Shown: one piece after another, positions 4,161 to 45,210 of the stretch
Position numbering within the stretch: the stretch's first letter is position 1
Layout: every line of letters begins with the position of its first letter
Virus record (IMG/VR): IMGVR_UViG_3300037882_002357
Span: 1-45,210 of that record
Length of the DNA stretch: 45,210 nucleotides
Strand: one strand, 5' to 3'
Origin: a virus
Program-made: the position numbers and the translations under genes
The notes under the pieces: model-generated
What the model saw: the letters and a program-made list of their open reading frames with translations, nothing else
The model's database searches: none
Told to the model about the DNA's origin: nothing

Positions 4161-4281
4161 AATGCTTAATCTTTTCTGAAACCGGCTTCCAAGTCAGATC
4201 CCTATAACACCTAAAGCAGTACATGATATAAAACTGAACATCTCTAAATGTAAGGGGTTTTTGGCAGTCTTGGCAGTTCAT
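4159..4281 (-). CDS. Zinc-ribbon peptide, 40 aa
   Basis: Four cysteines sit in two CxxC pairs (C3/C6 and C22/C25 in MNCQDCQ and YCFRCYRD), the layout of a small zinc ribbon. The ATG overlaps the stop of the upstream gene by 4 bases (ATGA), implying translational coupling. It is the last gene of the leftward early block and its stop abuts the rightward terminator. Short zinc-ribbon peptides are frequent in phage accessory regions; the partner is unknown. Confidence 0.65.
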   Translation of the reverse strand: MNCQDCQKPLTFRDVQFYIMYCFRCYRDLTWKPVSEKIKH

Positions 4282-4586
4282 TTTGAAAGCTCCACGGATT
4301 CTATAAACTCACGGGCTTTCTGATGGGCCGGATAGCTTCTTTCCTTCCAAGTAACTATGTTTTCCCTGATAAGTAAATCTAAGTTTTTAATTATATGGGT
4401 AGCTTGGATAAGCATTAAATCTTTTTCTTTATCAAGTATAAGCCCGGAAATTAAAAGATTAATAAGACCGCTTAACTCTTGGCTTACATGGTGTGCGTTG
4501 GCTTTTAATAAGCCGTCATGCTCCAACCCTTCTAGTTTAATTGCAAGAGTCTTGTATATTTCGTTTTCAATCCTGTTTTTGTTCAT
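4278..4586 (-). CDS. Hypothetical helical protein, 102 aa
   Basis: I do not recognise this protein. It is almost entirely helical by eye (IENEIYKTLAIKLEGLEHDG, LINLLISGLILDKEKDLM), with a moderately hydrophobic centre that is too short and charged to be a clear membrane anchor. The start is preceded by GGGGGTAAACA, a variant of this genome's AGGTAAACAA ribosome-binding motif. Directly before that lie nine T residues and a GC-rich hairpin, a possible attenuator. The stop overlaps the next gene by 4 bases. Confidence 0.65.
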   Translation of the reverse strand: MNKNRIENEIYKTLAIKLEGLEHDGLLKANAHHVSQELSGLINLLISGLILDKEKDLMLIQATHIIKNLDLLIRENIVTWKERSYPAHQKAREFIESVELSK

Positions 4587-6917: not shown

Positions 6918-8663
6918 TTACCCTTCCAAACCCTCAAAATATTCTAGAAAACCAGCAATTACCGAAGCAGATACATGAGGCCAAGATTTAGAAAATACCT
7001 GAAACCTATTTAAAAACTTAGCAAGATCCGAAAAATCAACAAGTAACTTAATATCCTTTATATTTTTTTCAAAGTCAATATAAACCGGATTACCCCGGTA
7101 AATTGTTTCAAAAAACGGTCTAAGCGTAAAGTCTAGTATAATTTCTTCTGCTTGTGATTCAGCAAAACCCATCTTTACTCTATCACGTACCCACTGTCTA
7201 AGATTTTCTATTCCATCATTCTTTACTATCGGCTTAACCGAAGTAATAACCGGTTTAAAGTCTTCGGCTTTTTGCTCCAAAAGGGATAGCAAATATTTTT
7301 GGTGGGCTTTTATTTGTGTGGGATCTTCTTCCATTACTGAAACAAACCCTTCGGTTGCTTTAAGTGTAACATGATAACCAAACCTATCAGTTATTTGTTT
7401 AAAAAAGTTAATATTAAAGTAATTACTAATAGGTTTAACCATTTCTAGTAAATCGTTAAGCTTATCGTATCCTATATGCTCTTTTTTCTCGCTTAATCTC
7501 TCGTTTACCGGCTCTTTTGTATCTGCCGGGATTAAACTATCCACTACCTTTAAACTAGTGCCTAGAACCTGGTTTATAAAATCTTTGCTTAATCCCGGTT
7601 CTATTCCCTGATCTTTAGCAGAAACTATTCTGGTCATGTTAACCGGCTCCCGTGGCTCCGGGCTGGGTAAATTCGGAATATCTGAAAGCTTAGCGGGTAA
7701 CGGATTACTAGAAAACAGATCTGATATTTCATCAGGGGTTAGGGTTTGGTATAAAGGTTTGGGTTTTTCTGGTTCTTTGTCTTCCAGAATATTTTTAAAG
7801 TGATTTTTATTATTAATATTCAAATCTAAATCACTAGGGGGGCTTTCCCCTAACTCCCATCTTATTTTTTTAAAATCATCCATCGTCCTTTTTGGTTCGT
7901 GACCTATTTCAGATTTTACTTTTTTCATTAACTCCGGGGTAGGCTCTAGATCCCCTTGGGGGGTTAGGGGGGTTGGGGGTTGATCTAAATAATGATCTAA
8001 TAAAGGATCTATAGACACGCCCGAAACTATTGTATTATCAATACTCTTAACCTCTTGGTTGTGGAACTTAGCTTCCGGTACTTGTAGAACTTTACTTCCT
8101 ATAGTTGTGGAACTTAGCTTCCCATAGTTGTGGAACTTAGCTTCCGGTATACTGGAACTTAACTTCCCATATAATGGAACTTTACTTCCAATAGTTTTAC
8201 TCTTAATGTGTAAAATGTTGTCGGAATTTTCCAGTAAACTTGAACTTTCAAACCTGTAATTTTGAGGTCTTACTAACTCAAATTTTAAAGAACCAGAATT
8301 TAATCCGTTGACTGTAATCTGATTTTCTGAAGTATTCATAAAAACTAAAGTACCTTTATTACCCATTCGGAACAGTAGAAAAACGCCCAGACTTTCCAGT
8401 AAATCAAAAGAGTTACTGATAGATTTTAAGGAAACGTCAAACCGCTCTGATAAATCAGACATTAAAAATAAATCGTGGTTTTGGCCGTTAAAGTTACTTA
8501 CTAATAACCTCATGATGTGGTTTTTAATACAGTGAGCGACCTTAGTTAACTTTTTGTCTATGTCTTCCATATCAACCCCGTTAATACTCCAAGGTGTACG
8601 GCTAAACCGAGTACAACCTATAATAGACTCTGTAGTTTGTGTGCTTGTGGCTTGACTTGCCAT
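6918..8663 (-). CDS. Replication initiator-like protein with origin iterons in its gene, 581 aa
   Basis: This is the largest gene of the early block. Residues 30-110 look like a winged helix (HIMRLLVSNFNG, LSERFDVSLKSISNSFDLLE, GVFLLFRMGNKG). A low-complexity Pro/Ser linker covers about 150-370, and a helical C-terminal domain contains IENLRQWVRDRVKMGFAESQ. This layout is typical of phage and plasmid initiators of the lambda O or DnaD-linked kind. The strongest support is the set of six iterons at 8063-8189 inside the gene, as in lambda O. It has its own promoter, a long leader with an attenuator, and an opposing RNA. The initiator role is inferred; no helicase loader or polymerase is nearby. 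Confidence 0.7.
   Translation of the reverse strand: MASQATSTQTTESIIGCTRFSRTPWSINGVDMEDIDKKLTKVAHCIKNHIMRLLVSNFNGQNHDLFLMSDLSERFDVSLKSISNSFDLLESLGVFLLFRMGNKGTLVFMNTSENQITVNGLNSGSLKFELVRPQNYRFESSSLLENSDNILHIKSKTIGSKVPLYGKLSSSIPEAKFHNYGKLSSTTIGSKVLQVPEAKFHNQEVKSIDNTIVSGVSIDPLLDHYLDQPPTPLTPQGDLEPTPELMKKVKSEIGHEPKRTMDDFKKIRWELGESPPSDLDLNINNKNHFKNILEDKEPEKPKPLYQTLTPDEISDLFSSNPLPAKLSDIPNLPSPEPREPVNMTRIVSAKDQGIEPGLSKDFINQVLGTSLKVVDSLIPADTKEPVNERLSEKKEHIGYDKLNDLLEMVKPISNYFNINFFKQITDRFGYHVTLKATEGFVSVMEEDPTQIKAHQKYLLSLLEQKAEDFKPVITSVKPIVKNDGIENLRQWVRDRVKMGFAESQAEEIILDFTLRPFFETIYRGNPVYIDFEKNIKDIKLLVDFSDLAKFLNRFQVFSKSWPHVSASVIAGFLEYFEGLEG
8063..8189. repeat. Six iterons within the initiator gene, putative replication origin
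   Basis: The 14-mer consensus GGAACTTAGCTTCC, a near-palindrome with GGAA...TTCC arms, occurs at 8063, 8086, 8109, 8132, 8154 and 8176 with spacings of 23, 23, 23, 22 and 22 bp. Variation is limited to positions 1, 8 and 9. The copies fall in all three codon frames of the overlapping gene (read as EAKFH, KLSS or SKV), so DNA sequence rather than protein is conserved. The spacing of about two helical turns fits cooperative initiator binding. AT-rich stretches near 7796-7832 and 8190-8290 could be unwinding regions. Confidence 0.8.
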
Positions 8664-8789
8664 AAAAAAACCTCCCGGCTTACAGGAGCGGATTACTTGA
8701 TAAATACCAGACTATGATATATAATGAAGTTAACCGCTCTTTTAATTTCTTACTTATCCCTTAATCTTTGACGGTAAAGGGATAGGTAT
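8664..8789 (-). promoter_or_regulatory. Initiator mRNA leader with mutually exclusive terminator and antiterminator stems
   Basis: Reading the minus strand, the stem CTCCTG (8688-8683)/CGGGAG (8677-8672) has a 5-nt loop. It is followed by G and seven T, ending one base before the ATG at 8663; the same stem buries the Shine-Dalgarno GGGAGG. Upstream, GAGCGGTTA (8739-8731) can pair with TAA-T-CCGCTC (8695-8686, one bulge). That pairing uses 8688-8686 and so excludes the terminator. A further inverted repeat, TATCCCTT (8755-8762 on the plus strand)/AAGGGATA (8777-8784), lies at the leader's 5' end. Together they form an attenuator that an antisense RNA could switch. Confidence 0.7.
8697..8725 (+). 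promoter_or_regulatory. Promoter of the antisense RNA
   Basis: TTGATA (8697-8702), exactly 17 bp and TATAAT (8720-8725) give a near-perfect sigma-70 promoter pointing rightward inside the leader of the leftward initiator gene. No rightward protein gene follows before 11915. A start about 7 bases downstream would be near 8732. Confidence 0.8.
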
Positions 8790-8868
8790 ATTATATCACT
8801 TTCAGGTATTGATAATAAAGATTTTCTACCAAAATGTTTGCCTTTTTGACCTCGCAAGGGGTCTTTTT
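8732..8868 (+). ncRNA. Putative antisense (counter-transcript) RNA of the replication initiator, about 137 nt
   Basis: The transcript would run from the consensus promoter at 8697-8725 to an intrinsic terminator whose stem is GACCTC (8848-8853)/GGGGTC (8858-8863) with a GCAA tetraloop and seven T (8864-8870). It encodes no plausible peptide. Its first ~55 nt are complementary to the initiator leader, including CCGCTC at 8734-8739, which matches the 5' arm of the antiterminator. It contains a stem-loop at 8755-8784. Plasmid pT181 and the Inc18 plasmids use RNAs of this kind to cause premature termination of rep mRNA. The start site and function are inferred. Confidence 0.65.
8790..8818 (-). 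promoter_or_regulatory. Candidate extended -10 promoter of the replication initiator
   Basis: On the minus strand TGATATAAT (8798-8790) is an extended -10 element. The matching -35 position (8818-8813, TTATTA) is weak, as is common for extended -10 promoters. The transcript would begin near 8783 and carry a leader of about 120 nt, fully opposed by the antisense RNA in its 5' half. Confidence 0.6.
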
Positions 8869-8870
8869 TT
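8848..8870 (+). terminator. Intrinsic terminator of the antisense RNA
   Basis: A 6-bp stem with a GCAA tetraloop is followed by TTTTTTT. It is oriented rightward, and on the other strand the stem is not followed by T. No rightward coding region lies upstream within 4 kb, so its presence implies a rightward non-coding transcript. Confidence 0.8.
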
Positions 8871-8892
8871 ATGGTAGAATATATTTACATCC

Positions 8893-8919
8893 AAAAAAGC
8901 CCTAGCTAATGCTTAGGGC
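8893..8919 (-). terminator. Intrinsic terminator ending the regulator-antirepressor operon
   Basis: On the minus strand GCCCTA (8919-8914) pairs with TAGGGC (8904-8899), and six T follow (8898-8893). It lies 26 bp after the stop of gene 8945-9280 and isolates the initiator gene, which has its own promoter. A T-rich stretch on the other side (8922-8928) may make it partly bidirectional. Confidence 0.85.
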
Positions 8920-8944
8920 AGTATTTTTATGTAGTTTTTAGGTG

Positions 8945-9280
8945 TTAATTAAAGTATCTCATTCTATAAAAATCCACCAGATCGGAATCACTTACAATCC
9001 ACTTGGAACCCTTCTTACTTCCCCCAATGTTTTTTACATATCCGTTTTTTATTAGATAATTGAAAGCCTGAGAGATTACAGCTTGCCCGCCAACACCATT
9101 CTTAGGTTTTTCGGCTCCAACTTTTCTAGCTAGATCGGTTTGGGTAATGGGATTATTACCTAACCTAATCATTGCGTCTAGTAGTAATTTTGGTTTAGCT
9201 GGTAGCCGGGTTAATTTTCCAAGGTATGCCCAGGTTAAGCGGTCTAGTTCAGTTAGTCGGGATTCTGGAAATATTTTCAT
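8945..9280 (-). CDS. Winged-helix DNA-binding protein, 111 aa
   Basis: Residues 45-100 form a winged-helix pattern: NNPITQTDLARKVGAEKP, then VISQAFNYLIKNGYVKNI as the recognition part, and GGSKKGSKWIVS as the wing. The N-terminal 40 residues are basic and helical (LTWAYLGKLTRLPAKPKLLL). It is a probable transcriptional regulator or replication accessory protein, and the last gene before the terminator at 8893-8919. It is a candidate for binding the early palindromic operators, but there is no direct evidence. Confidence 0.65.
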   Translation of the reverse strand: MKIFPESRLTELDRLTWAYLGKLTRLPAKPKLLLDAMIRLGNNPITQTDLARKVGAEKPKNGVGGQAVISQAFNYLIKNGYVKNIGGSKKGSKWIVSDSDLVDFYRMRYFN

Positions 9281-9283
9281 GGT

Positions 9284-9568
9284 TTAATCACCTGTCTTCA
9301 AAAATATATCCATCAGGGTTTTAAATTCCTGATAGGTTGCGGGAAAGTCAAAATCTGCAATAACCCGAAAACTTTGAAATTCATTATTGGTTATTATGCA
9401 GTTGTAAAGATCATCTATTTTAAAAACTTCAATATCAAGTATCTTGTTACTTGATTCTTGTCGTAAAAAAGAACCATCTGCTTTAGGGAGTGGCTTAAAT
9501 ACTTCCCAACCTTCTTTACTCTTTAGATATTCGGTTAAAAAGTCTTCTTGATTAATTTCTTTAGTCAT
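9284..9568 (-). CDS. Hypothetical acidic protein, 94 aa
   Basis: The preferred start is the ATG at 9568 (MTKEINQEDFLTEYLKSK), which overlaps the end of the upstream gene by 8 bases. A longer frame from 9595 lies deeper in that gene. The protein is acidic, with FRVIADFDFPATYQEFKTLM in the C-terminal half, and no motif is recognised. It ends 3 bases before the winged-helix gene, so the two are translated from one message. Confidence 0.6.
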   Translation of the reverse strand: MTKEINQEDFLTEYLKSKEGWEVFKPLPKADGSFLRQESSNKILDIEVFKIDDLYNCIITNNEFQSFRVIADFDFPATYQEFKTLMDIFLKTGD

Positions 9569-9782
9569 GTTTTTTACCATCCAATTTATTTTCAATGTTT
9601 TTAAGCCGTTCTGAGATTAATTTTAACTCTTTGTGTGTAGATTCATGTACTACTAAAGAGTTATTAAAAAAATTAAGTTCTTGGTGTCTCCAATTACTCA
9701 AAAATTCTGCCCTGTATCCTAACCAACCTTTTGTAAAAAAGAATCCGATATACATCGAAATAATGATAATAAGTGTTTGCAT
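9561..9782 (-). CDS. Small membrane protein with coiled coil, 73 aa
   Basis: Residues 2-20 (QTLIIIISMYIGFFFTKGW) form one membrane helix at the N-terminus. The remainder is a charged amphipathic helix (HKELKLISERLKNIENKL) suited to coiled-coil association. AAGGG lies upstream of the ATG at 9782. Small membrane-anchored coiled-coil proteins next to phage control genes sometimes act in superinfection exclusion. That role is only a suggestion here. Confidence 0.6.
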   Translation of the reverse strand: MQTLIIIISMYIGFFFTKGWLGYRAEFLSNWRHQELNFFNNSLVVHESTHKELKLISERLKNIENKLDGKKHD

Positions 9783-9907
9783 TGTTTTTCCCTTCTATAC
9801 CAATCTAGTCTTTAAAATCTGGAATAAAGCAATTCTTAAAAAGTATCCCAAATTAAACCACAAAAGGTTTTGTTATTTTAGTTTTTTTATTCATTGGTTA
9901 ACACCTT

Positions 9908-10804
9908 TTAATTAAAAATCTTATTACTAATTAAATGATCTTCGGGGACATTTGAAAAATCAATTTTGTTAAAATCTTGAAGAGTAAGCACATTTCTTTT
10001 AATCAAAAGCTTAGCAAGCAATAAATAAAACCTGGGAACTACCTTTAGCATATCTTTAGCAATGCTTTTTTGTTCACCTGTTTTTTTATCAATCCAGTTT
10101 TTTACAACAGTATTAATTAAAAAATAATCTGTGTAAGAGTGAGTAGGATAATTTTCACCATTTACTCTAGTTAAAACTTTTTCTTCTCTAAGAAATTCAA
10201 ATATTTTATTAGGGCCTAAACCATAGGGTTTTAATTTATAACCGATTTGTCGAACCGTTTTAAATTCTGTGGTATTAGTAAAAACATCAAACAAAACCGC
10301 TTTAGGCTCGGATAACTGGAGCCTTTTTTCTTTTTCTTCTATTTCCTGGGCTAGTCTACCGGCTAATAATAAAGCTTCTGAAAAGCTTTGTGGTATTCGT
10401 TGGTTTTGGGGTTGGACTGGAGTTATTTCGGGATTTATAAACGCCTTGGCTAGAATATCCCTGGCTTTCAACTGGAACTCTAACAGGTAGGGTTTAATTG
10501 TTTCCGAAACTTTGTTAATGTGGATACCGGCCAACCATAAAGGTAAAAAATCAATGTTGATACAGGAGGTTGTTTGTACACCACTATTTGAAGGGATACT
10601 GATTAAAGATATGGCTTGTTCGTAAACAGGATTTCCTTTGATTTTATTAAGTTGACTTGCATAAGCTAAACCAAGATCTTCTGAGATCTTTTTAATAGAA
10701 GTATAAATTTTCCCGTCTGAACCTTTAACCGCTAATAAATCCATATTATTGAACCTAACAAACTTAAATTCAATACCTTTTACTAAATTTTTATCGTTAT
10801 TCAT
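9908..10804 (-). CDS. Phage antirepressor (P22_AR_N-like with KilAC-like C-terminus), 298 aa
   Basis: The N-terminal 120 residues match the P22 antirepressor N-terminal family: DGKIYTSIKKISEDLGLAY, then CINIDFLPLWLAGIHINKV and VSETIKPYLLEFQLKARDIL. A helical linker with LAGRLAQEIEEKEKRLQLSE leads to a C-terminal KilAC/ANT-like DNA-binding domain (EPKAVLFDVF, LGPNKIFEFLREEKVLTR). Such proteins bind and inactivate phage repressors. It is preceded by a second antirepressor-like gene and the Cro/C1-like gene, forming a lysis-lysogeny-type control cluster. The length is typical of the family. Confidence 0.8.
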   Translation of the reverse strand: MNNDKNLVKGIEFKFVRFNNMDLLAVKGSDGKIYTSIKKISEDLGLAYASQLNKIKGNPVYEQAISLISIPSNSGVQTTSCINIDFLPLWLAGIHINKVSETIKPYLLEFQLKARDILAKAFINPEITPVQPQNQRIPQSFSEALLLAGRLAQEIEEKEKRLQLSEPKAVLFDVFTNTTEFKTVRQIGYKLKPYGLGPNKIFEFLREEKVLTRVNGENYPTHSYTDYFLINTVVKNWIDKKTGEQKSIAKDMLKVVPRFYLLLAKLLIKRNVLTLQDFNKIDFSNVPEDHLISNKIFN

Positions 10805-10806
10805 AA

Positions 10807-11445
10807 TTAAACCTCACTACCATATAACCGAAAAACATTCTTAACTTCCTCCAAAGTCTTTTTATCAAACATGAAAAACTCTTTTTTACCCTTAACAAGA
10901 TTCTTTTTAAACATCTTATGCAAAGTTTTTTCTACACTTAAAGAATTAGTAGTTTTAAAAGAATCTATAAGTTTTAAATCATAGGGAGAACCACCATTTA
11001 AGTTTACAAAACGTTTTCTTAAATCTTGAGCTAAACCTATTTTGTAATAATTACAACCATAGTCTATTAAATAAATAAATTTGTCTTGGTTTTTTGCTAT
11101 TACTTCAATTTTATTTAGACAAAGTGATTCAATAAAATTATTAATTAACGATGTTTTTAAACAGATTGTTTTTTGAATACCACCATTTGAATATTTGCTT
11201 ATAAGTTTAAATCCATCTATAAACCTAAAATTTCTTTTAATTCTTCTTAATTGACCTTGATGGCTTAAACCAAGATCCTCACATATTTTTTTAAAAGGTA
11301 TGTAAAAATCACCTTCAAACTCAAAACACTCCGAGATTAAATCATAATCAAGTTTTCTTTCCAGATATTTTTGTTCTAATCCTGGCTTATCCCTAAAAAG
11401 TTCTTTTTTAAGGTCTTCCAATGTTTTCATAGGTTCTTTATCCAT
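10807..11445 (-). CDS. Antirepressor-like protein with T5orf172/GIY-YIG-type C-terminal domain, 212 aa
   Basis: Residues 40-110 resemble the N-terminal antirepressor domain of the next gene (GDFYIPFKKICEDLGLSHQG, then GGIQKTICLKTSLINNFI). Residues 120-200 look like the T5orf172/MUG113 branch of the GIY-YIG nuclease superfamily: IYLIDYG, YYKIGLAQDLRKRF, then VEKTLHKMFKK and GKKEFFMF. Proteins combining these two domains are known in phages. It could be an antirepressor with nuclease-like sensing or a DNA-cleaving early protein. It overlaps the upstream gene by 1 base and is 3 bases from its paralogue. Confidence 0.75.
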   Translation of the reverse strand: MDKEPMKTLEDLKKELFRDKPGLEQKYLERKLDYDLISECFEFEGDFYIPFKKICEDLGLSHQGQLRRIKRNFRFIDGFKLISKYSNGGIQKTICLKTSLINNFIESLCLNKIEVIAKNQDKFIYLIDYGCNYYKIGLAQDLRKRFVNLNGGSPYDLKLIDSFKTTNSLSVEKTLHKMFKKNLVKGKKEFFMFDKKTLEEVKNVFRLYGSEV

Positions 11446-11914: not shown

Positions 11915-11943
11915 TTGACATATATAAATAAGAACTGTATAAT
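11915..11943 (+). promoter_or_regulatory. Consensus rightward promoter of the 11981-19324 operon
   Basis: TTGACA (11915-11920), exactly 17 bp and TATAAT (11938-11943) match the sigma-70 consensus in full. It points away from the Cro/C1-like gene, with the two -35 elements about 18 bp apart. The -10 is followed by AGTATATG. It is the only strong promoter seen before the 7.3-kb rightward operon. Confidence 0.9.
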
Positions 11944-11980: not shown

Positions 11981-12148
11981 ATGAAAGAATGTAAAAGTTG
12001 CGGTTGCTTAACTGATAGATTGGAATTAATCACCCGGTCTTTTAAACCGGCTCTGGTAGACTTTGTTTTATGCCGGGATTGCTCAGCAGATTTTGAAAAA
12101 AACTTAGGTGCTGACTTTGTATCTTATTATAGTTTTAGAGGAGTTTAA
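11981..12148 (+). CDS. Zinc-ribbon peptide A, 55 aa
   Basis: The sequence MKECKSCGCLTDRLELITRS and CRDCSADFEKNLG gives two CxxC pairs (C4/C7 and C31/C34) of a small zinc ribbon. The ATG at 11981 follows AGAAGGTAAACAA; a longer frame from 11915 would start inside the promoter. It is the first gene of the rightward operon and a close paralogue of the peptide at 12846-13016. Its last codons contain the AGAGGAG site of the next gene. The function is unknown; DNA or protein binding is likely for a zinc ribbon. Confidence 0.75.
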   Translation: MKECKSCGCLTDRLELITRSFKPALVDFVLCRDCSADFEKNLGADFVSYYSFRGV

Positions 12149-12150
12149 CT

Positions 12151-12429
12151 GTGTGTATTAAAAGTGGCGATGGCTTTGGCTCTGGCGATGGCTATGGCTT
12201 TGGCTTTGGCTCTGGCTCTGGCTATGGCTCTGGCGATGGCGATGGCTTTGGCTCTGGCTCTGGCTATGGCTTTGGCTTTGGCTCTGGCTTTGGCTCTGGC
12301 TTTGGCTCTGGCGATGGCTATGGCTCTGGCTTTGGCTCTGGCGATGGCTATGGCTTTGGCTTTGGCTCTGGCGATGGCGATGGCGATGGCGATGGCTCTG
12401 GCTCTAATTTTGAAGTTATAAAAATTTAA
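12151..12429 (+). CDS. Gly-X dipeptide repeat protein, 92 aa, GTG start
   Basis: The GTG at 12151 is preceded by AGAGGAG at an 8- to 9-base spacing. After MCIKS come 40 dipeptides of Gly plus Asp, Phe, Ser or Tyr, then the tail NFEVIKI. Every glycine is GGC and the partner codons are only GAT, TTT, TCT or TAT. Similar Gly-rich low-complexity proteins occur in other phages, without known function. The composition (FG, YG, SG, DG) resembles disordered, phase-separating segments. Other frames across the repeat are also open (Ala/Leu/Met rightward, Ala/Ile/Arg/Lys leftward) simply because the unit lacks stops; only this frame has a good binding site. Confidence 0.65.
   Translation: MCIKSGDGFGSGDGYGFGFGSGSGYGSGDGDGFGSGSGYGFGFGSGFGSGFGSGDGYGSGFGSGDGYGFGFGSGDGDGDGDGSGSNFEVIKI
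12166..12405. repeat. Hexanucleotide array GGC-NNT, 40 units
   Basis: Forty consecutive 6-bp units fill 240 bp. Positions 1-3 are always GGC and position 6 always T. Positions 4-5 are GA, TT, TC or TA. The array is GC-rich within an AT-rich genome and contains longer internal repeats (the order SDYFFS occurs twice). It is likely to vary in length between relatives. Confidence 0.97.
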
Positions 12430-13018: not shown

Positions 13019-15211
13019 ATGAGTTATCAAGATTTTTTAAAAGCAAAGTTAAAGATCAATATTGAAAGCGGGTTCAACATTGATCAATCAAAATTAAACT
13101 CAACATTATTTGATTTTCAAAAGCTATGCGTACAGCGGGCTTTAAAAGCTGGTAAGTTTGCTATCTTTGCGGATTGCGGATTAGGAAAGACTTTTATGCA
13201 GTTAGAATGGGCTAATCAGGTGTCAATTAAAACAAAAAAACCGGTTTTAATAGTGGCCCCTTTGGGTGTAACTTTTCAAACTATAAATGAAGGTTTAAAG
13301 CTAGGTTTATTTGTAAAAAAAATAACATCTAGTTCCGAAGTGGATAAAAGCTTTAAGATTTATATTACTAATTATGAGCAATTAGGAAACATAAAAAGCT
13401 CTGATTTTTCAGGAGTAGTTATTGATGAAAGTTCAATATTAAAAAACTTTTCTGGAAAGTACAAAGAGTTAATTATATCAATGTTTAGTAATACACCATA
13501 TAAGCTAGCTTGTACCGCTACCCCGGCTCCCAATGATCCAATGGAACTAGGAAACCATTCAGAGTTTTTAAACCAGATGTCTAGGTCTGAAATGTTAGCT
13601 ATGTTTTTTATACATGATGGTGGCAACACTTCACAATGGAGGCTTAAAAAACACGCTGTTAATCAGTTCTGGTCTTATATAAGCTCTTTCGCTGTAATGC
13701 TTAATACTCCCGCTGATATGGGGTTTGATGCGACTAATTATAAACTACCGGCTTTAAATATGATTGAACATATAATAGAAGTTCCTAAGCGGGATAACGG
13801 GCTTTTGTTTAATGAATCTGCTATAAATGCCACTAATTTTAATCAGGAGCTTAGGTTAACTTTAGACGATCGGGTTAACAAAGTACTTGAAATAATAAAA
13901 GGATCTGATGAAAGCTTTATTATCTGGGTAAAGCAAAATGAGGAAGGCGATATTTTAAATAAACTAATCCCCGGTTCTGTTCAAGTTAAAGGGTCTGATT
14001 CTCCAGAACATAAAGAATCTAGTTTAATGGGTTTTGCTGATGGTAAATTTAAGGTCTTAATTACCAAAACCAAGATAGCTCAGTTTGGTTTAAATTATCA
14101 AAATTGTAATAACCAGATATTCGCTAGTTTAGATTTTAGCTTTGAGGGGTTATATCAAGCAATCAGAAGATCTTATAGATTCGGTCAAAAAAAGCCAGTT
14201 AACATCCATATAGTTACGACTGATACCATGACAAACGTTATCAATATTATAAAAAACAAGGAGTTAGGTTTTATGGAAATGCAAAAAAATATGGTTATGG
14301 ACGTTAACGATGCTATAAAAAAACTTGGTATCAGTAAAAATTATCCTGATTTAATTGAGCATGATAAGTTTAGATTTTACAAAGGTGATTGCGTTGAGTT
14401 AATTAAAACACTAGATAATGAATCGGTAGATTTTTCTGTATTCTCTCCTCCTTTTGCTGATTTATATACTTATTCCGATTCAATAAACGATATGGGCAAC
14501 AGTAAGGATTATAACGAGTTCTTAATTCATTTTAGTTTTTTAATCCAAGATTTATATAGGGTTATAAAATCCGGTAGATTAGTTGCAGTTCATTGTATGG
14601 ATTTACCGATTCAGAAAGGTAAAGAAGGTTATATTGGAATAAGGGATTTTTCTGGGATGATATTAAAAGCTTTTAGTGATGCTGGGTTTATATATCATAC
14701 TAGGGTTACAATCTGGAAAGATCCCGTAGTTGAGATGCAAAGAACAAAAGCACTAGGACTGCTTCACAAACAGTTAAAAAAAGACAGTTCAATGTCAAGG
14801 GTTGGGATACCTGATTACTTAATGGTTTTTAGAAAAGATGGAGAAAACGAAAACCCTATTAAGAATGATAAAATACCAGTTGATTTATGGCAAAAATACG
14901 CATCTCCGGTATGGTATGATATTAACTACTCCAAAACCTTACAATACCAGACAGCCAAAGATAACAATGATGAAAAGCATATATGCCCGCTTCAACTAGA
15001 TACTATAGAAAGAGCTGTCACCCTTTGGAGTAATGAAGGCGATACCGTATTAAGTCCATTTGGTGGGATTGGTTCTGAAGGTTTTCAGTCGGTTAAAATG
15101 AATCGTAAATACATCGGATTTGAGTTAAAACAATCCTACTATAACATAGGCTGTAAAAATCTATTATCAGCCGCAAAGAATGACCAGTTAAGCATATTTG
15201 ACAACATATAG
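13019..15211 (+). CDS. SF2 helicase-DNA methyltransferase fusion, 730 aa
   Basis: Residues 1-440 are an SNF2-like superfamily 2 helicase: Walker A ADCGLGKT at 51-58, Walker B VVIDESS at about 136, motif III ACTATPAPND, and motif VI GLYQAIRRSYRFGQ. Residues 450-730 are an N4/N6-type DNA methyltransferase: FYKGDCVELIKTL leads to the catalytic SPPF, and SPFGGIGSEG near the end is the SAM-binding FxGxG motif. Fusions of this sort are common in phages. They probably modify the phage genome while translocating, giving protection from host restriction. No restriction endonuclease lies beside it. It follows zinc-ribbon peptide B by 2 bp. Confidence 0.9.
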   Translation: MSYQDFLKAKLKINIESGFNIDQSKLNSTLFDFQKLCVQRALKAGKFAIFADCGLGKTFMQLEWANQVSIKTKKPVLIVAPLGVTFQTINEGLKLGLFVKKITSSSEVDKSFKIYITNYEQLGNIKSSDFSGVVIDESSILKNFSGKYKELIISMFSNTPYKLACTATPAPNDPMELGNHSEFLNQMSRSEMLAMFFIHDGGNTSQWRLKKHAVNQFWSYISSFAVMLNTPADMGFDATNYKLPALNMIEHIIEVPKRDNGLLFNESAINATNFNQELRLTLDDRVNKVLEIIKGSDESFIIWVKQNEEGDILNKLIPGSVQVKGSDSPEHKESSLMGFADGKFKVLITKTKIAQFGLNYQNCNNQIFASLDFSFEGLYQAIRRSYRFGQKKPVNIHIVTTDTMTNVINIIKNKELGFMEMQKNMVMDVNDAIKKLGISKNYPDLIEHDKFRFYKGDCVELIKTLDNESVDFSVFSPPFADLYTYSDSINDMGNSKDYNEFLIHFSFLIQDLYRVIKSGRLVAVHCMDLPIQKGKEGYIGIRDFSGMILKAFSDAGFIYHTRVTIWKDPVVEMQRTKALGLLHKQLKKDSSMSRVGIPDYLMVFRKDGENENPIKNDKIPVDLWQKYASPVWYDINYSKTLQYQTAKDNNDEKHICPLQLDTIERAVTLWSNEGDTVLSPFGGIGSEGFQSVKMNRKYIGFELKQSYYNIGCKNLLSAAKNDQLSIFDNI

Positions 15212-15413: not shown

Positions 15414-16037
15414 ATGTCAGAATCAAAAGAGTTTACTATTAATAATATGTTTACTGATGAAGTTTTACACGAGGGGTTAGCAAAAGATTTTAAGTCTTTT
15501 TGTGAAGAAAAAAAATTTAACCTTGAAGATGCGAACCTTGAAGATGCGAACCTTAGAAATGCGAACCTTGAAGATGCGAACCTTAGAAATGCGAACCTTG
15601 TAAATGCGAACCTTGTAAGTGCGAACCTTGTAAGTGCGAACCTTGAAGATGCGAACCTTAGAAATGCGAACCTTGTAAATGCGAACCTTGTAAGTGCGAA
15701 CCTTGTAAGTGCGAACCTTGTAAATGCGAACCTTGAAGATGCGAACCTTCCGATTTATTGTAAATGGTCAATTAGTTTTACTCCAAAAACATCCGTAAAT
15801 CTTGATTCTGAAAAAGTTTTAATTAATGAAATTGATATAAACACGGTATTAATTAAAATTGGATGTAAAAATCCCAAAACGATATCAGAATGGGATCTTT
15901 GGTTTTCCAGTAATGAAGCTTTTGAAACTCCAAGGGATTCTTTTGAGTTTTTACAAATTAAAGCTATGTACTTATCTTATAAAACTTATTTACAAACTAT
16001 TACAAGTTTTAAAAAAGGATGTGAAAAAGTTGTATAA
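15414..16037 (+). CDS. Pentapeptide-repeat protein, 207 aa
   Basis: After a 35-residue N-terminus come 15 pentapeptides of the form N-L-x-x-A (residues 36-110), giving about four coils of a right-handed quadrilateral beta helix. The x-x pair is only ED, RN, VN or VS. The C-terminal 95 residues (LPIYCKWSISF, then EWDLWFSSNEAFETPRD and IKAMYLSYKTYLQ) match the tail seen in other phage pentapeptide proteins. Pentapeptide folds in MfpA and Qnr mimic DNA and bind gyrase; whether this one does is not known. A strong AGGAGG site precedes the ATG. Confidence 0.85.
   Translation: MSESKEFTINNMFTDEVLHEGLAKDFKSFCEEKKFNLEDANLEDANLRNANLEDANLRNANLVNANLVSANLVSANLEDANLRNANLVNANLVSANLVSANLVNANLEDANLPIYCKWSISFTPKTSVNLDSEKVLINEIDINTVLIKIGCKNPKTISEWDLWFSSNEAFETPRDSFEFLQIKAMYLSYKTYLQTITSFKKGCEKVV
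15519..15749. repeat. 15-bp tandem array encoding NLxxA pentapeptides
   Basis: There are fifteen copies of AACCTT-NNNNNT-GCG plus a final AACCTT. The variable hexamer is only GAAGAT, AGAAAT, GTAAAT or GTAAGT. Units 4-8 are repeated exactly as units 9-13, a 75-bp tandem duplication. The framework codons AAC, CTT and GCG never change. Confidence 0.95.
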
Positions 16038-30131: not shown

Positions 30132-31364
30132 TTAACTGTGTGTTTTAGTAAGATCGTGGGTTTGATTAGTAATAGTATTGCTATTATTATAATAACGGTT
30201 CACAATATCCAAGGGGTTAAAGGTTTTTCGTTTAACTTCTCGGATTGCTTCATCATAAATTACATTATAATTTTTTATTGTTTTTTGAATGGTAAACTGT
30301 CTAGACCGATTAAAACCGGCAATTCGATAAAACTTATAAACATCTGGATTAGAAAGAAGTTTTAAGAACTCAACGTATTGGTTAGGATTATAAGCAACCA
30401 AAGCGGATTCCCCAACGACTTCACTAACTACCGGAGAACAAACCACTGGTAAACCAAAAGCCATGGCTTCCAAAACCGATAACCCGAAAGAATCGACTAA
30501 AGTAGGATAAAGAAAAATAGAACCGTTTACACTTAATAAAGATTTTACTTTTTCGGATGGTATCTGTCCTAGGAATTTATGATTAATTCTTTCAATATCT
30601 GAAACTTTACCCTCGCCATAATAATGAAAATCCAGAAAATTACAGTAAGAACTTTCTAATGTAGCTTTGTAACACTCTGGATCGTACTTTTCTAAGCGAC
30701 CAGTCCAGAAAACATTATCACCGTAAGAACTCAAATATTCAGGGTTAAACGTGGGAATAGTACTTAAATCAATTCCATTATAAATAGTTTTTTGGGGAAC
30801 GTCCAAATGCTTTTGTGTTTCACTTGCCCGATCACTTACATTTATTACAAACTCAGTGTTAAACCCTGATATATATTCTTTGGGTATCTTAAACTCCGAG
30901 TGACAAGTAACCACCATAGCCGGGCGTTTACCCCGCCATTCTGGAAGTTTTACAACCTCGAATACTCCAAAGGGATGTGAATCAATGTTTAACTTACTAC
31001 CGGGTTTTAATTTGATATAAAATTCAGGGGCAAAGGGATTAACCTTTAAATCCCAGGCTTTTACTAAATCGTCATCAGGCTTAAGATTTAAACAGACAAC
31101 CCCATTCCCGTTAAGGCTTTCCGGGCCTGTCCAATGAATGTTTATTATATCGATATTATTTTCTATACAGATATTAAAAACTTCATAAAAGCTTTCGATA
31201 TGTATATGCTTAATATCCCGGTTAAACTCCAGTTGGTTATTATTCCGGCCAAAAGTTACAACCACATGGTTATTATCGGTTGAATGATTTATAAACTCTC
31301 TTACAAAAGTTTCTAGACCTCCAACGGGTAAAAAACCATGTGATAAGTGTAAGATGTTAGGCAT
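30132..31364 (-). CDS. GT4-like glycosyltransferase (GT-B fold), 410 aa
   Basis: The N-terminus ILHLSHGFLPVGGLETFVRE is the GGxE-type start of GT-B enzymes. The C-terminal half has NVFWTGRLEKYDPECYKATL and GSIFLYPTLVDSFGLSVLEA followed by MAFGLPVVCSP, the E-x7-E nucleotide-sugar-binding motif of family GT4. It is encoded inside the tail module together with a methyltransferase (2 bases apart). Phages that glycosylate capsid or tail proteins often place such genes among virion genes, so virion decoration is the likely role. Modification of host surface sugars is an alternative. Confidence 0.85.
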   Translation of the reverse strand: MPNILHLSHGFLPVGGLETFVREFINHSTDNNHVVVTFGRNNNQLEFNRDIKHIHIESFYEVFNICIENNIDIINIHWTGPESLNGNGVVCLNLKPDDDLVKAWDLKVNPFAPEFYIKLKPGSKLNIDSHPFGVFEVVKLPEWRGKRPAMVVTCHSEFKIPKEYISGFNTEFVINVSDRASETQKHLDVPQKTIYNGIDLSTIPTFNPEYLSSYGDNVFWTGRLEKYDPECYKATLESSYCNFLDFHYYGEGKVSDIERINHKFLGQIPSEKVKSLLSVNGSIFLYPTLVDSFGLSVLEAMAFGLPVVCSPVVSEVVGESALVAYNPNQYVEFLKLLSNPDVYKFYRIAGFNRSRQFTIQKTIKNYNVIYDEAIREVKRKTFNPLDIVNRYYNNSNTITNQTHDLTKTHS

Positions 31365-31366
31365 CT

Positions 31367-32050
31367 TTACACCTTCTTTTTTGTCTTTGGTTTTTCGGCT
31401 TTTTCGGTCTTTTCTTTGGGGGAATTACCACCAGATTTAGTGATAATAAAATCATTAGGTAAACTAGCTTTCTGATATATTTTATAACTAGCTTCGACTT
31501 TATCGGCCAACGCTTCTATATCAGCTTCTGAATAAGTGCCTTCCCAAAAAGGGTATTTATTATGAAAGTGAATAATACCGGCTTTAGTGCCTTGGGAGTG
31601 CCAACCGATAACTATTTTGTCAGCTTCGGGGTTTTCTGCAAAGATTTTTTCAAGATATTCTAGCGGGTTTTCTTGATGCTGTATTACGTCAATGGAAACC
31701 ACTATATCGTAATCAGTATTTTTTTGATATTCCGAAACATGGAAAAATGAAGCGTTTGGCAAACCCGGATTATTTTCTTTGGCTTTATCAATCATAGCGG
31801 TAGAACCATCTACCCCTATATAATCAATAAAAGCAAAATCTAAACCTAATTCTCTTTGGAGAATTCCACAAAAGCGACCAGTACCACAACCATAGTCCAA
31901 GATATTAACCTTAGACTTTTCGGTTAATTTTTCTTTTACCTTTGCTATAATATCCCGTTCAGCTTCGGTATATCTAGCTTTCCAATCTCGATCAAGTATC
32001 GAAACTACTTCGGGTATCCAGTTGTTAAAATCTTTTATATTTTCAGTCAT
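31367..32050 (-). CDS. Class I SAM-dependent methyltransferase, 227 aa
   Basis: Motif I is NILDYGCGTGRFCGIL at about residue 49, followed by FIDYIGVDGSTAMIDKAKE (motif II acid) and DYDIVVSIDVIQHQENPLEY (motif IV region). No DNA-methyltransferase DPPY motif is present, so the substrate is probably a small molecule, sugar or protein. It lies 2 bases before the glycosyltransferase, which suggests that it methylates the same glycan. The C-terminus is a Lys/Glu/Pro-rich tail (KEKTEKAEKPKTKKKV). Confidence 0.8.
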   Translation of the reverse strand: MTENIKDFNNWIPEVVSILDRDWKARYTEAERDIIAKVKEKLTEKSKVNILDYGCGTGRFCGILQRELGLDFAFIDYIGVDGSTAMIDKAKENNPGLPNASFFHVSEYQKNTDYDIVVSIDVIQHQENPLEYLEKIFAENPEADKIVIGWHSQGTKAGIIHFHNKYPFWEGTYSEADIEALADKVEASYKIYQKASLPNDFIITKSGGNSPKEKTEKAEKPKTKKKV

Positions 32051-42216: not shown

Positions 42217-43635
42217 TTATAAACCTAATTCTCTGGAAATATCATTAGAATTTAATCTTTTACTTAACCCAAAACCAGCACCAAGATCCAACCCTTCCCG
42301 CTTATTAAAAGTGGTAATAGCTTTAGGGTCAGGATTACCGGGTAATAATTCAAAAACCATTTGCATTAATAAAGCGTCTGAAAAGTCAGGTGATCGACCT
42401 ATTAACTCTTTCACTTTATCCTTAGATATAATCTGCTTTTTACCTTCTTTATCCATGTTAGCCTGTTTTAATTGCTCTAACTCTTCGATTATAAGATCTT
42501 GCGTTGATTCATCTTGGCAATTAATAAATAAATTACTTTCCTGAATTTTTTCAGAAAGTTTAAAACCACACTGACTTTTTAAGTTATTGTAATTTTCATT
42601 ATTCAAGGCAGAACTATTATTAATAAAAGCTTTGCAGTTTGGTATCTGGTCTACAACACCGCCTCCAATCCCATCGTCGTCTATTACTATCCGGTGATTA
42701 GGTACTTTATATTCCTTGGCTAATGCTTTAATTAAATCAGCGGTTTCTACAGTACTTTGTTTACTTCTAATTACTACCTTAACCACCCGTAAACCAGACC
42801 AGACCAGAATAACAATTCTATCCGAGCCATAGCGGGCCACATCAGCGGAAATGTAATTTAAACCCGGTTCGACAAAGTTATTGGTAAAAATTGCGAGAAT
42901 ATTTTCATAACTTACCAGTGATGCGGGATCGTCATCATACTCCCAATTACCCTTAAGTAGTCTTTCCTTCTCATTAGTAGAAAGTATCCGGTATAAGTTC
43001 TCAATATACCCGGGGGGCAACATCTTATTGTCTTCTGGTAAAGCTTGTATAAACTCTTGCCAGTCTTCCAAAATACCATCCCTAAAAGCCTGATAGATTT
43101 TATACAGGTAGTTTTTGGAAGGGTTACAGGTTTCAAGTAATTTTCCTGTTATTCCGTAAACATCATTTTTCCATCGGCCAATAGTAGCGGCTAAGTTATT
43201 CCTAGCTTCGGTCTCAAACTCCCCGGCTTCCTCAATCCAGCCTTGCGTCATTTGCATTGAGCCAAACCGGTAAAAATGAGGATCGGACGGTAGATACTTT
43301 GCATCAATCAGGAAAATTTTAGAGCCGTTATAAAACTCGAAATAATTATCCTGACCGTTAAACTTATAATATTCTGGAGTAATCCCCCAATGTTGAAAAA
43401 CCTCGTACATTGACGGGGTAGTATATTTCCTTAAATCGTTTAGTTTTTTTCTAGCTATAAAGTAATGGGTCTCTGGATAAATTAAAGCACTAGAACCCAT
43501 AACAGAGCATCCAAGATAAGACTTACCCGCACCTTTAGAACCACCGTAAATCAAGCTTTTTACTTTGGGGTTATTCCAGGCAAGCCACGCCTGTTTTTGC
43601 TTCTCGTTACCATTACTATTAAACTGTAGCTTCAT
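42217..43635 (-). CDS. terL: Terminase large subunit, 472 aa
   Basis: Residues 25-45 hold the Walker A motif in LIYGGSKGAGKSYLGCSV, and QGWIEEAGEFE is the Walker B/acid region. The C-terminal nuclease begins at YISADVARYGSDRIVILVWS, with the second acid in RIVIDDDGIGGGVVDQI and a third in RSPDFSDALLMQM. It cuts concatemeric DNA and pumps it into the prohead. The small subunit lies 50 bp upstream. The motif set is complete and the length is normal. Confidence 0.95.
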   Translation of the reverse strand: MKLQFNSNGNEKQKQAWLAWNNPKVKSLIYGGSKGAGKSYLGCSVMGSSALIYPETHYFIARKKLNDLRKYTTPSMYEVFQHWGITPEYYKFNGQDNYFEFYNGSKIFLIDAKYLPSDPHFYRFGSMQMTQGWIEEAGEFETEARNNLAATIGRWKNDVYGITGKLLETCNPSKNYLYKIYQAFRDGILEDWQEFIQALPEDNKMLPPGYIENLYRILSTNEKERLLKGNWEYDDDPASLVSYENILAIFTNNFVEPGLNYISADVARYGSDRIVILVWSGLRVVKVVIRSKQSTVETADLIKALAKEYKVPNHRIVIDDDGIGGGVVDQIPNCKAFINNSSALNNENYNNLKSQCGFKLSEKIQESNLFINCQDESTQDLIIEELEQLKQANMDKEGKKQIISKDKVKELIGRSPDFSDALLMQMVFELLPGNPDPKAITTFNKREGLDLGAGFGLSKRLNSNDISRELGL

Positions 43636-44744: not shown

Positions 44745-45210
44745 CTATTCTCCTAAAATTCTTTGTTTCATAGCTTGTTGAAAAGCTTTAAAATAAATAA
44801 CGTTATCATGTTCCAACTCTGGAACCTTCTCACCGTAACAAATAATCGTTTCAGGCTGTATTAATTCAACCATCTTGTTAAAACCAACCATGAAGTTGTA
44901 AATAGCTTCTTTATCTTTCATTACTCCCACGGTAGACACCGCAACGGTACAACCTTTAGGAATACCAGAAAAACAAAAATCAAAACTTTCTTTGGTTGAC
45001 CATGCTATGGTAGGAATAACTTTAAGTCCTTTAGACTGCCAGTAACAAGTAAGCCAGCGGTTACGATAAATATTAAATATCTGTAATGCCAAAGGAAAAT
45101 CAGTATATAAGCTAAAATCAGGCCCCAAACAGCCGGGGAACTTCTCTAACATCCCCGGATAACGGGCCGGGTCATTCCAAACCCGCTCAAACTGGTAATC
45201 ATCTAAAAAG
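44745..45210 (-). CDS. ParB-like/DUF4417 protein, C-terminal part (continues from position 1)
   Basis: This is the 3' portion of the same gene as complement(1-707); the last 99 bases overlap the left-end copy. The protein reads through with LYTDFPLALQIFNIYRNRW, IPTIAWSTKESFDFCF and TVAVSTVGVMKD, which are characteristic of the DUF4417 C-terminal region, and ends at 44745. The frame is preserved across the join. An ATG at 45152 is internal and should not be taken as the start. The next gene begins only 3 bases downstream, consistent with one transcript. Confidence 0.85.
   Translation of the reverse strand, partial: FLDDYQFERVWNDPARYPGMLEKFPGCLGPDFSLYTDFPLALQIFNIYRNRWLTCYWQSKGLKVIPTIAWSTKESFDFCFSGIPKGCTVAVSTVGVMKDKEAIYNFMVGFNKMVELIQPETIICYGEKVPELEHDNVIYFKAFQQAMKQRILGE
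45112..45210. repeat. Terminal direct repeat, right copy (assembly overlap)
   Basis: This is an exact copy of bases 1-99. Removing one copy leaves a 45,111-bp unit. A true packaging repeat of only 99 bp inside a coding region would be unusual. Circular permutation with headful packaging is inferred, not shown. Confidence 0.95.

Follow-up and report, generated by a model that had tools for sequence, protein, structure and literature searches.

Antisense attenuation of rep genes is textbook plasmid biology; in phages it is usually repressors and antiterminators that set the timing of replication. In the Staphylococcus aureus plasmid pT181, the ribosome-binding site is predicted to lie in stem-loop IV, which functions chiefly as a terminator and whose formation an upstream sequence pre-empts (PMC5703833). 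In the Inc18 plasmid pIP501, the 136-nt antisense RNAIII induces attenuation in the repR leader; antisense transcription also converges on the rep promoter, and this convergent transcription matters (PMC4981023). pSK41 has its origin centrally within rep, together with an antisense RNA to the rep leader and a hairpin that buries the Shine-Dalgarno sequence (SD) (PMC5703833).

The mechanism itself is thus known from plasmids, and antisense RNAs are known from phages (oop, P4, P1 and N15) but are built differently. The repeats bound by lambda O lie inside gene O. The P4 immunity RNA acts through premature termination, and the RNAs of P4, P1/P7 and N15 are processed from the same-strand leader transcript. 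Binding of the lambda repeats by the initiator is known (PMC3985674), the small immunity RNAs of P4, P1/P7 and N15 are complementary to gene leaders (PMC7567579), and some mycobacteriophage prophages are extrachromosomal low-copy plasmids with RepA or RNA-based origins (PMC7157519). In the open-access literature searched we found no tailed phage whose rep gene is controlled by a countertranscript attenuator, in agreement with the original prediction for the DNA described here, although absence is not proven. That prediction proposed an antisense-RNA attenuator like those of pT181 and Inc18 plasmids in a 45,210-nt virus record (the whole of which we call the window). Folding, the promoter and terminator, and shuffles support such an attenuator in silico, and we consider it probable that a phage replication initiator here has, in its leader, a countertranscript-driven attenuator that follows the pT181 logic.

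The leader and its predicted antisense RNA

The initiator candidate is an open frame of 581 residues on the minus strand (8663-6918) with a GGGAGG SD, and the sequence directly 5' of this leftward gene reads CTCCTGTAAGCCGGGAGG-TTTTTTT-ATG. Sequence, folding and a terminator scan place an attenuator hairpin, CTCCTG-UAAGC-CGGGAG, at 8688-8672 (minus strand), followed by T7 (8670-8664) that ends at the ATG (8663). With six pairs, including one G-U, the stem is short; its energy is -6.6 kcal/mol alone and -8.0 kcal/mol with flanking bases, and the site is among the four strong leftward terminators in a scan of the 45-kb window. Its 3' arm is the SD of the initiator gene (GGGAGG, 8676-8671, minus strand), so that translational control is predicted equally with termination. 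The antiterminator (pre-emptor) has its 5' arm, GAGCGG, at 8739-8734 (minus strand), which pairs with the 3' arm CCGCTC at 8691-8686 (minus strand) with a probability of 0.98 in the free leader. Three bases of the latter (8688-8686) are common to the attenuator stem, and the helix is extended around a bulge (8733-8731 with 8695-8693). The terminator stem with its T tract by the ATG, and the competing stem that shares three bases with it, are therefore confirmed by sequence and folding. A further leader hairpin found by folding, hairpin I (TATCCCTT-loop-AAGGGATA, 8755-8784, minus strand), is matched by a hairpin of complementary sequence on the antisense side and is likely to be the first contact of the two RNAs. 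An Rfam search gave no match at the attenuator locus.

The antisense promoter (TTGATA-17-TATAAT, 8697-8725, plus strand) sits in the antiterminator loop, matches the consensus at 11 of 12 positions and is one of only four rightward sites in the window that score 11/12 or better. Promoters were scored against the sigma-70 consensus and intrinsic termination was presumed, rules that may not be those of the host. The window holds two strong rightward terminators, one of which would end the antisense RNA (GACCTCGCAAGGGGTC followed by T7, 8848-8870, plus strand; stem -8.2 kcal/mol). Promoter and terminator together bound a predicted non-coding RNA of ~138 nt (8732-8870, plus strand; fold -31.1 kcal/mol), which at the level of sequence bears out the right-facing pair and the RNA of about 137 nt that had been proposed. 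The claim that no rightward gene exists for 4 kb upstream and 3 kb downstream holds broadly; the one qualification is an unsupported rightward ORF (9595-9915, plus strand, 106 aa), the sole sizeable one in the first 1 kb beyond the antisense RNA's terminator, which has no SD, lies opposite the leftward ORF 9561-9782 and is probably not a gene.

The sense promoter, read from the sequence, has an extended -10 box (TGATATAAT, 8798-8790, minus strand) and a weak -35. Sense transcription would start near 8784 and give a leader of ~120 nt, in which inspection by eye for a leader peptide found no ATG. With a start near 8784, the first 53 nt of the antisense RNA are complementary to leader 8784-8732, after which it traverses the sense promoter. 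We infer from these signals that both RNAs, message and antisense, exist. The upstream gene (8945-9280) ends in its own leftward terminator (GCCCTAAGC...GCTAGGGC with T6, 8919-8893, minus strand), and the initiator is therefore probably on a transcription unit of its own; the plus strand of 8893-8919 also scores as a terminator.

Folding of the free leader gives a mean probability of 0.02 for the terminator and 0.98 for the antiterminator. Antisense binding was represented by masking. With 8784-8732 masked the probability of the terminator rises to ~0.97, and it does likewise when only 8739-8732 is masked, in line with the earlier proposal that the 5' end of the antisense RNA covers the antiterminator arm. 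The SD is mostly free in the unmasked leader and fully paired once the antisense-covered region is masked. The switch persists with sense starts anywhere in 8775-8786 and as long as the mask extends to 8735 or beyond; a mask that ends at 8738 weakens it (terminator 0.75, antiterminator 0.60). In chain-growth folding the antiterminator closes ahead of the complete terminator, making read-through the default. Against shuffles, the minimum free energy of the leader (-29.3 kcal/mol) has a z of -2.7. A comparable two-state switch, defined as a T-tract-adjacent terminator that the 5' part suppresses and that emerges once this part is masked, was seen in 1 of 3000 shuffles. Of 5000 dinucleotide shuffles of 8664-8944, 0.48% had a promoter this strong and 0.74% a terminator, and none had the ordered pair.

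The repC leader of pT181 served as a positive control. It has the same anatomy, a hairpin containing AAGGAG, then U6, then AUG, and it gives a like computed switch: in leaders of 200-240 nt the terminator has a probability of 0.08-0.17 when free and 0.98 with the 5' part masked, whereas with longer assumed leaders the free state is ambiguous (0.55-0.68). The phage locus thus resembles pT181 RNAI/repC, as had been proposed, in having an antisense RNA to the rep leader, a hairpin whose 3' arm bears the SD, a U tract that runs to the AUG, and a pre-emptor for the 5' arm. It differs in that the phage leader is shorter (~120 nt), the antisense RNA is longer (~138 against 87 nt) and the carrier is a phage; moreover, RepC is a rolling-circle initiator (Rep_trans), and the phage initiator is unrelated to it in sequence and has iterons inside its gene. 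With the Inc18 plasmids (pIP501, pAMbeta1) the locus shares antisense attenuation of the rep leader, as predicted here, convergence, and a separately transcribed gene for a small protein upstream, DNA-binding in Inc18. However, the pIP501 leader is 329 bp and its origin lies downstream of repR, not inside the gene as in the phage. P4, P1/P7 and N15 differ in that the antisense RNA of the present phage is set by a separate opposite promoter and terminator.

The candidate initiator and its iterons

An array of six copies of the palindrome GGAAcTTAgcTTCC, spaced by 22-23 bp, lies at 8058-8196 inside the first half of the initiator gene and is the probable origin. Only one match, a weak one with two mismatches, was found in the window outside the array, and an A+T-rich stretch (8150-8374, 29-30% GC) adjoins it. 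Beside the iterons, where the gene encodes a proline-rich linker of the initiator, the plus strand also has a G-rich tract, GGGGGGTTAGGGGGGTTGGGGGTT (7945-7979). The iterons within the gene support an origin-binding protein, and we think it very likely, on architecture rather than homology, that the 581-residue product is a replication initiator, as had been predicted.

Homology searches with the initiator gave nothing. Profile scans with Pfam, NCBIfam and PHROGs returned no Rep family, whether of the pT181, the Inc18 or another plasmid type; there was no match to the RepA_N N-terminal domain (PF06970) at E <= 10 and none to the lambda O-type profile (PF04492), whose only match was sub-threshold and to a different ORF (4278-4586). 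No match was found by tblastn in 72,556 plasmid records. Queries with the full-length protein and with its N-terminus found no relative in viral contigs, nor was there one in genome contigs, in phages or in 49 full virus records that share the terminase or helicase gene. Short N-terminal tblastn matches in three records proved to be an unrelated protein of ~120-130 aa and were rejected. A search of viral contigs for the iteron-pair pattern found none. AlphaFold without an alignment gave a mean pLDDT of 33 for the whole protein and 38 for the N-terminus, and the models were set aside.

The layout is best read as lambda-O/RepA_N-like. As in pSK41-type RepA_N plasmids, the (probable) origin lies inside rep, with iterons in the middle of the gene, an antisense RNA to the leader and a hairpin that buries the SD; unlike them, the phage initiator does not match PF06970, and T7 after the hairpin predicts termination too, unlike pSK41. 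The palindromic iterons inside an initiator gene are equally a feature of lambda O, and the pO-oop arrangement likewise has a short RNA running away from the initiator, with a promoter just upstream (PMC3985674). However, oop targets cII, the O leader is not known to have an attenuator and the phage initiator does not match PF04492. Given the iteron-type initiator, we did not retain the idea that either RNA serves as a primer in the manner of ColE1.

A second brake is conceivable. The palindrome GTATTGATAATAA (8806-8818), over the sense promoter, is a weak candidate for an operator; a perfect copy, GTATTGATAATAC, lies beside the iterons (8044-8032), and the window holds six matches against a shuffle average of 2.4. 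The protein of 111 residues encoded upstream of the initiator (8945-9280, minus strand) appears winged-helix-like by eye and has no profile match. From its position one might speculate that it is a CopR-like second regulator, and protein and palindrome make a weak pair of candidates for a second brake of that kind. In Inc18, however, CopR is an XRE-type helix-turn-helix protein, and we found no sequence relation between the Inc18 systems and the phage locus.

The phage genome and its lifestyle

The ends of the record carry an exact 99-bp direct repeat (1-99 and 45112-45210), and on this ground we take the record as probably circular and complete, at ~45.1 kb. It has packaging and structural genes (terminase, portal, tape measure), a Cro/CI-type helix-turn-helix protein (the phage repressor) and antirepressor genes. 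A search for tyrosine and serine recombinases (PF00589, PF00239) gave none, so no integrase was found, and a search for a ParA-type partition gene (PF13614) gave no match. A complete circular genome that lacks an integrase but carries packaging and structural genes is what one expects of a phage-plasmid; ParA is lacking here, but phage-plasmids do not all carry a ParA-type partition gene. Extrachromosomal mycobacteriophages differ in having parABS, of which none was found here, and no countertranscript attenuator of rep is described for them. The initiator is on the strand of the repressor, and the presumed lytic early genes run rightward from a perfect consensus promoter at 11915. This arrangement, with no recombinase, fits a plasmid prophage whose initiator is on during lysogeny and needs a brake. 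On balance we lean towards a prophage kept as a plasmid, and the completeness of the record, the lack of an integrase and the gene orientation suggest that the virus may limit its own copy number as a plasmid does. The terminal repeat, the missing integrase, the sense -10 box, the iterons in the gene and the identity of the SD with the attenuator's 3' arm all go beyond the original prediction.

Relatives of the terminase (42217-43635, minus strand) are mostly in Bacteroidota, with some in Patescibacteria contigs; sigma-70 promoters and SD sequences, both present in the window, are atypical of Bacteroidota. One virus record has only the terminase in common with this phage. The plus-strand gene at 13019-15211 encodes a DEAD/SNF2-like helicase fused to an N6/N4 DNA methyltransferase and is ~65% identical to hundreds of viral contigs; since the rest of the phage is almost without relatives, the fusion was probably acquired separately. 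The gene at 12148-12429 (plus strand; GTG start, SD) is made up nearly throughout of degenerate copies of the hexamer TGGCTC (39 at 12171-12405) and encodes a glycine-rich protein of G-[FSYD] repeats, and the opposite strand is also open, with A-[KRI] repeats. In the gene for a pentapeptide-repeat protein at 15414-16037 (plus strand), a 15-bp unit is repeated ~15 times in tandem (15519-15749). The product of 10807-11445 (minus strand, 212 aa) has an N-terminus of the P22 antirepressor type fused to a domain of the T5orf172/MUG113 (GIY-YIG-type) group, and a second antirepressor gene (9908-10804) adjoins it. Two minus-strand genes within the tail module encode a glycosyltransferase (30132-31364) and a methyltransferase (31367-32050).

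Proposed mechanism and alternatives

We suggest that the leftward promoter (8798-8790) makes the initiator message, in whose default fold GAGCGG (8739-8734) would pair with CCGCUC (8691-8686), pre-empt the hairpin at 8688-8672 and allow transcription and translation to proceed. The rightward promoter inside the leader would produce the ~138-nt antisense RNA complementary to leader 8784-8732. By pairing with hairpin I and GAGCGG, this RNA would let the hairpin at 8688-8672 form before U7; transcription would then end just ahead of the ATG, and the SD would be buried in any message that is read through. The attenuator would probably act, therefore, on both transcription and translation. Because message and countertranscript come from the same copies and the antisense RNA rises with genome number, initiator synthesis would fall with copy number: at low copy number there would be little antisense RNA, the antiterminator would form and the initiator would be made, and at high copy number the initiator would be shut off at two levels. 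In this scheme the antisense RNA would act in trans and would be what controls copy number, and polymerase passing through the initiator promoter may add interference.

Several observations could be accommodated differently. If control were translational only, as in pSK41, the hairpin at 8688-8672 would bury the SD and T7 would be a mere spacer between SD and ATG. The SD is indeed the 3' arm of the hairpin and masking leaves it fully paired, terminators tend to have longer stems than this one, and the pSK41 antisense RNA induces an SD-burying stem without transcription attenuation (PMC5703833). However, a T tract straight after the stem is a requirement of intrinsic terminators, the site is one of just four strong leftward ones in 45 kb, and pT181, with the same SD-in-terminator anatomy, nevertheless works mainly by termination (PMC5703833). 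We regard purely translational control as improbable. It is also imaginable, though we would give it little credence, that the rightward promoter acts in the manner of lambda oop, mainly by opposing transcription, through collision or through occlusion of the initiator promoter, and that the RNA matters little. We know of no leader switch of this kind for lambda O, and in the present phage the antiterminator arm lies under the 5' end of the antisense RNA and folding predicts a sharp switch. The rightward transcript does traverse the initiator promoter (8798-8790), and lambda pO, just upstream of gene O, faces away, with a replication effect ascribed more to promoter interference than to oop RNA (PMC3985674); yet interference may supplement attenuation rather than replace it.

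Least credible, in our judgement, is a chance juxtaposition of an ordinary hairpin near a start codon with an unrelated promoter-like and terminator-like pair. A shuffled genome of equal size would yield about two promoters this strong, and motifs of SD, hairpin, T tract and ATG are common in viral contigs (at least 121 sites, mostly ordinary ones). Against this, an antisense promoter and terminator accompany the motif at just one among the 121 matches listed, and at the present locus all elements fall within ~200 bp in the right geometry, which the shuffles reproduced once in 3000 (switch) or not at all in 5000 (promoter with terminator). We therefore retain the attenuator of transcription and translation as the preferred reading.

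Taken as a whole, we propose tentatively a tailed temperate phage whose prophage is a plasmid, with copy number and an incompatibility-type self-immunity set by a pT181-type attenuator, and with an initiator of a new family that has an internal iteron origin. If this is true, a plasmid device would sit on an unrelated phage initiator and would be portable between replicons. A prophage in the plasmid state would gain from it a direct molecular means of controlling copy number and of resisting superinfection through immunity, and the device would provide a sequence signature by which other phage-plasmids could be spotted that have no recognisable plasmid genes.
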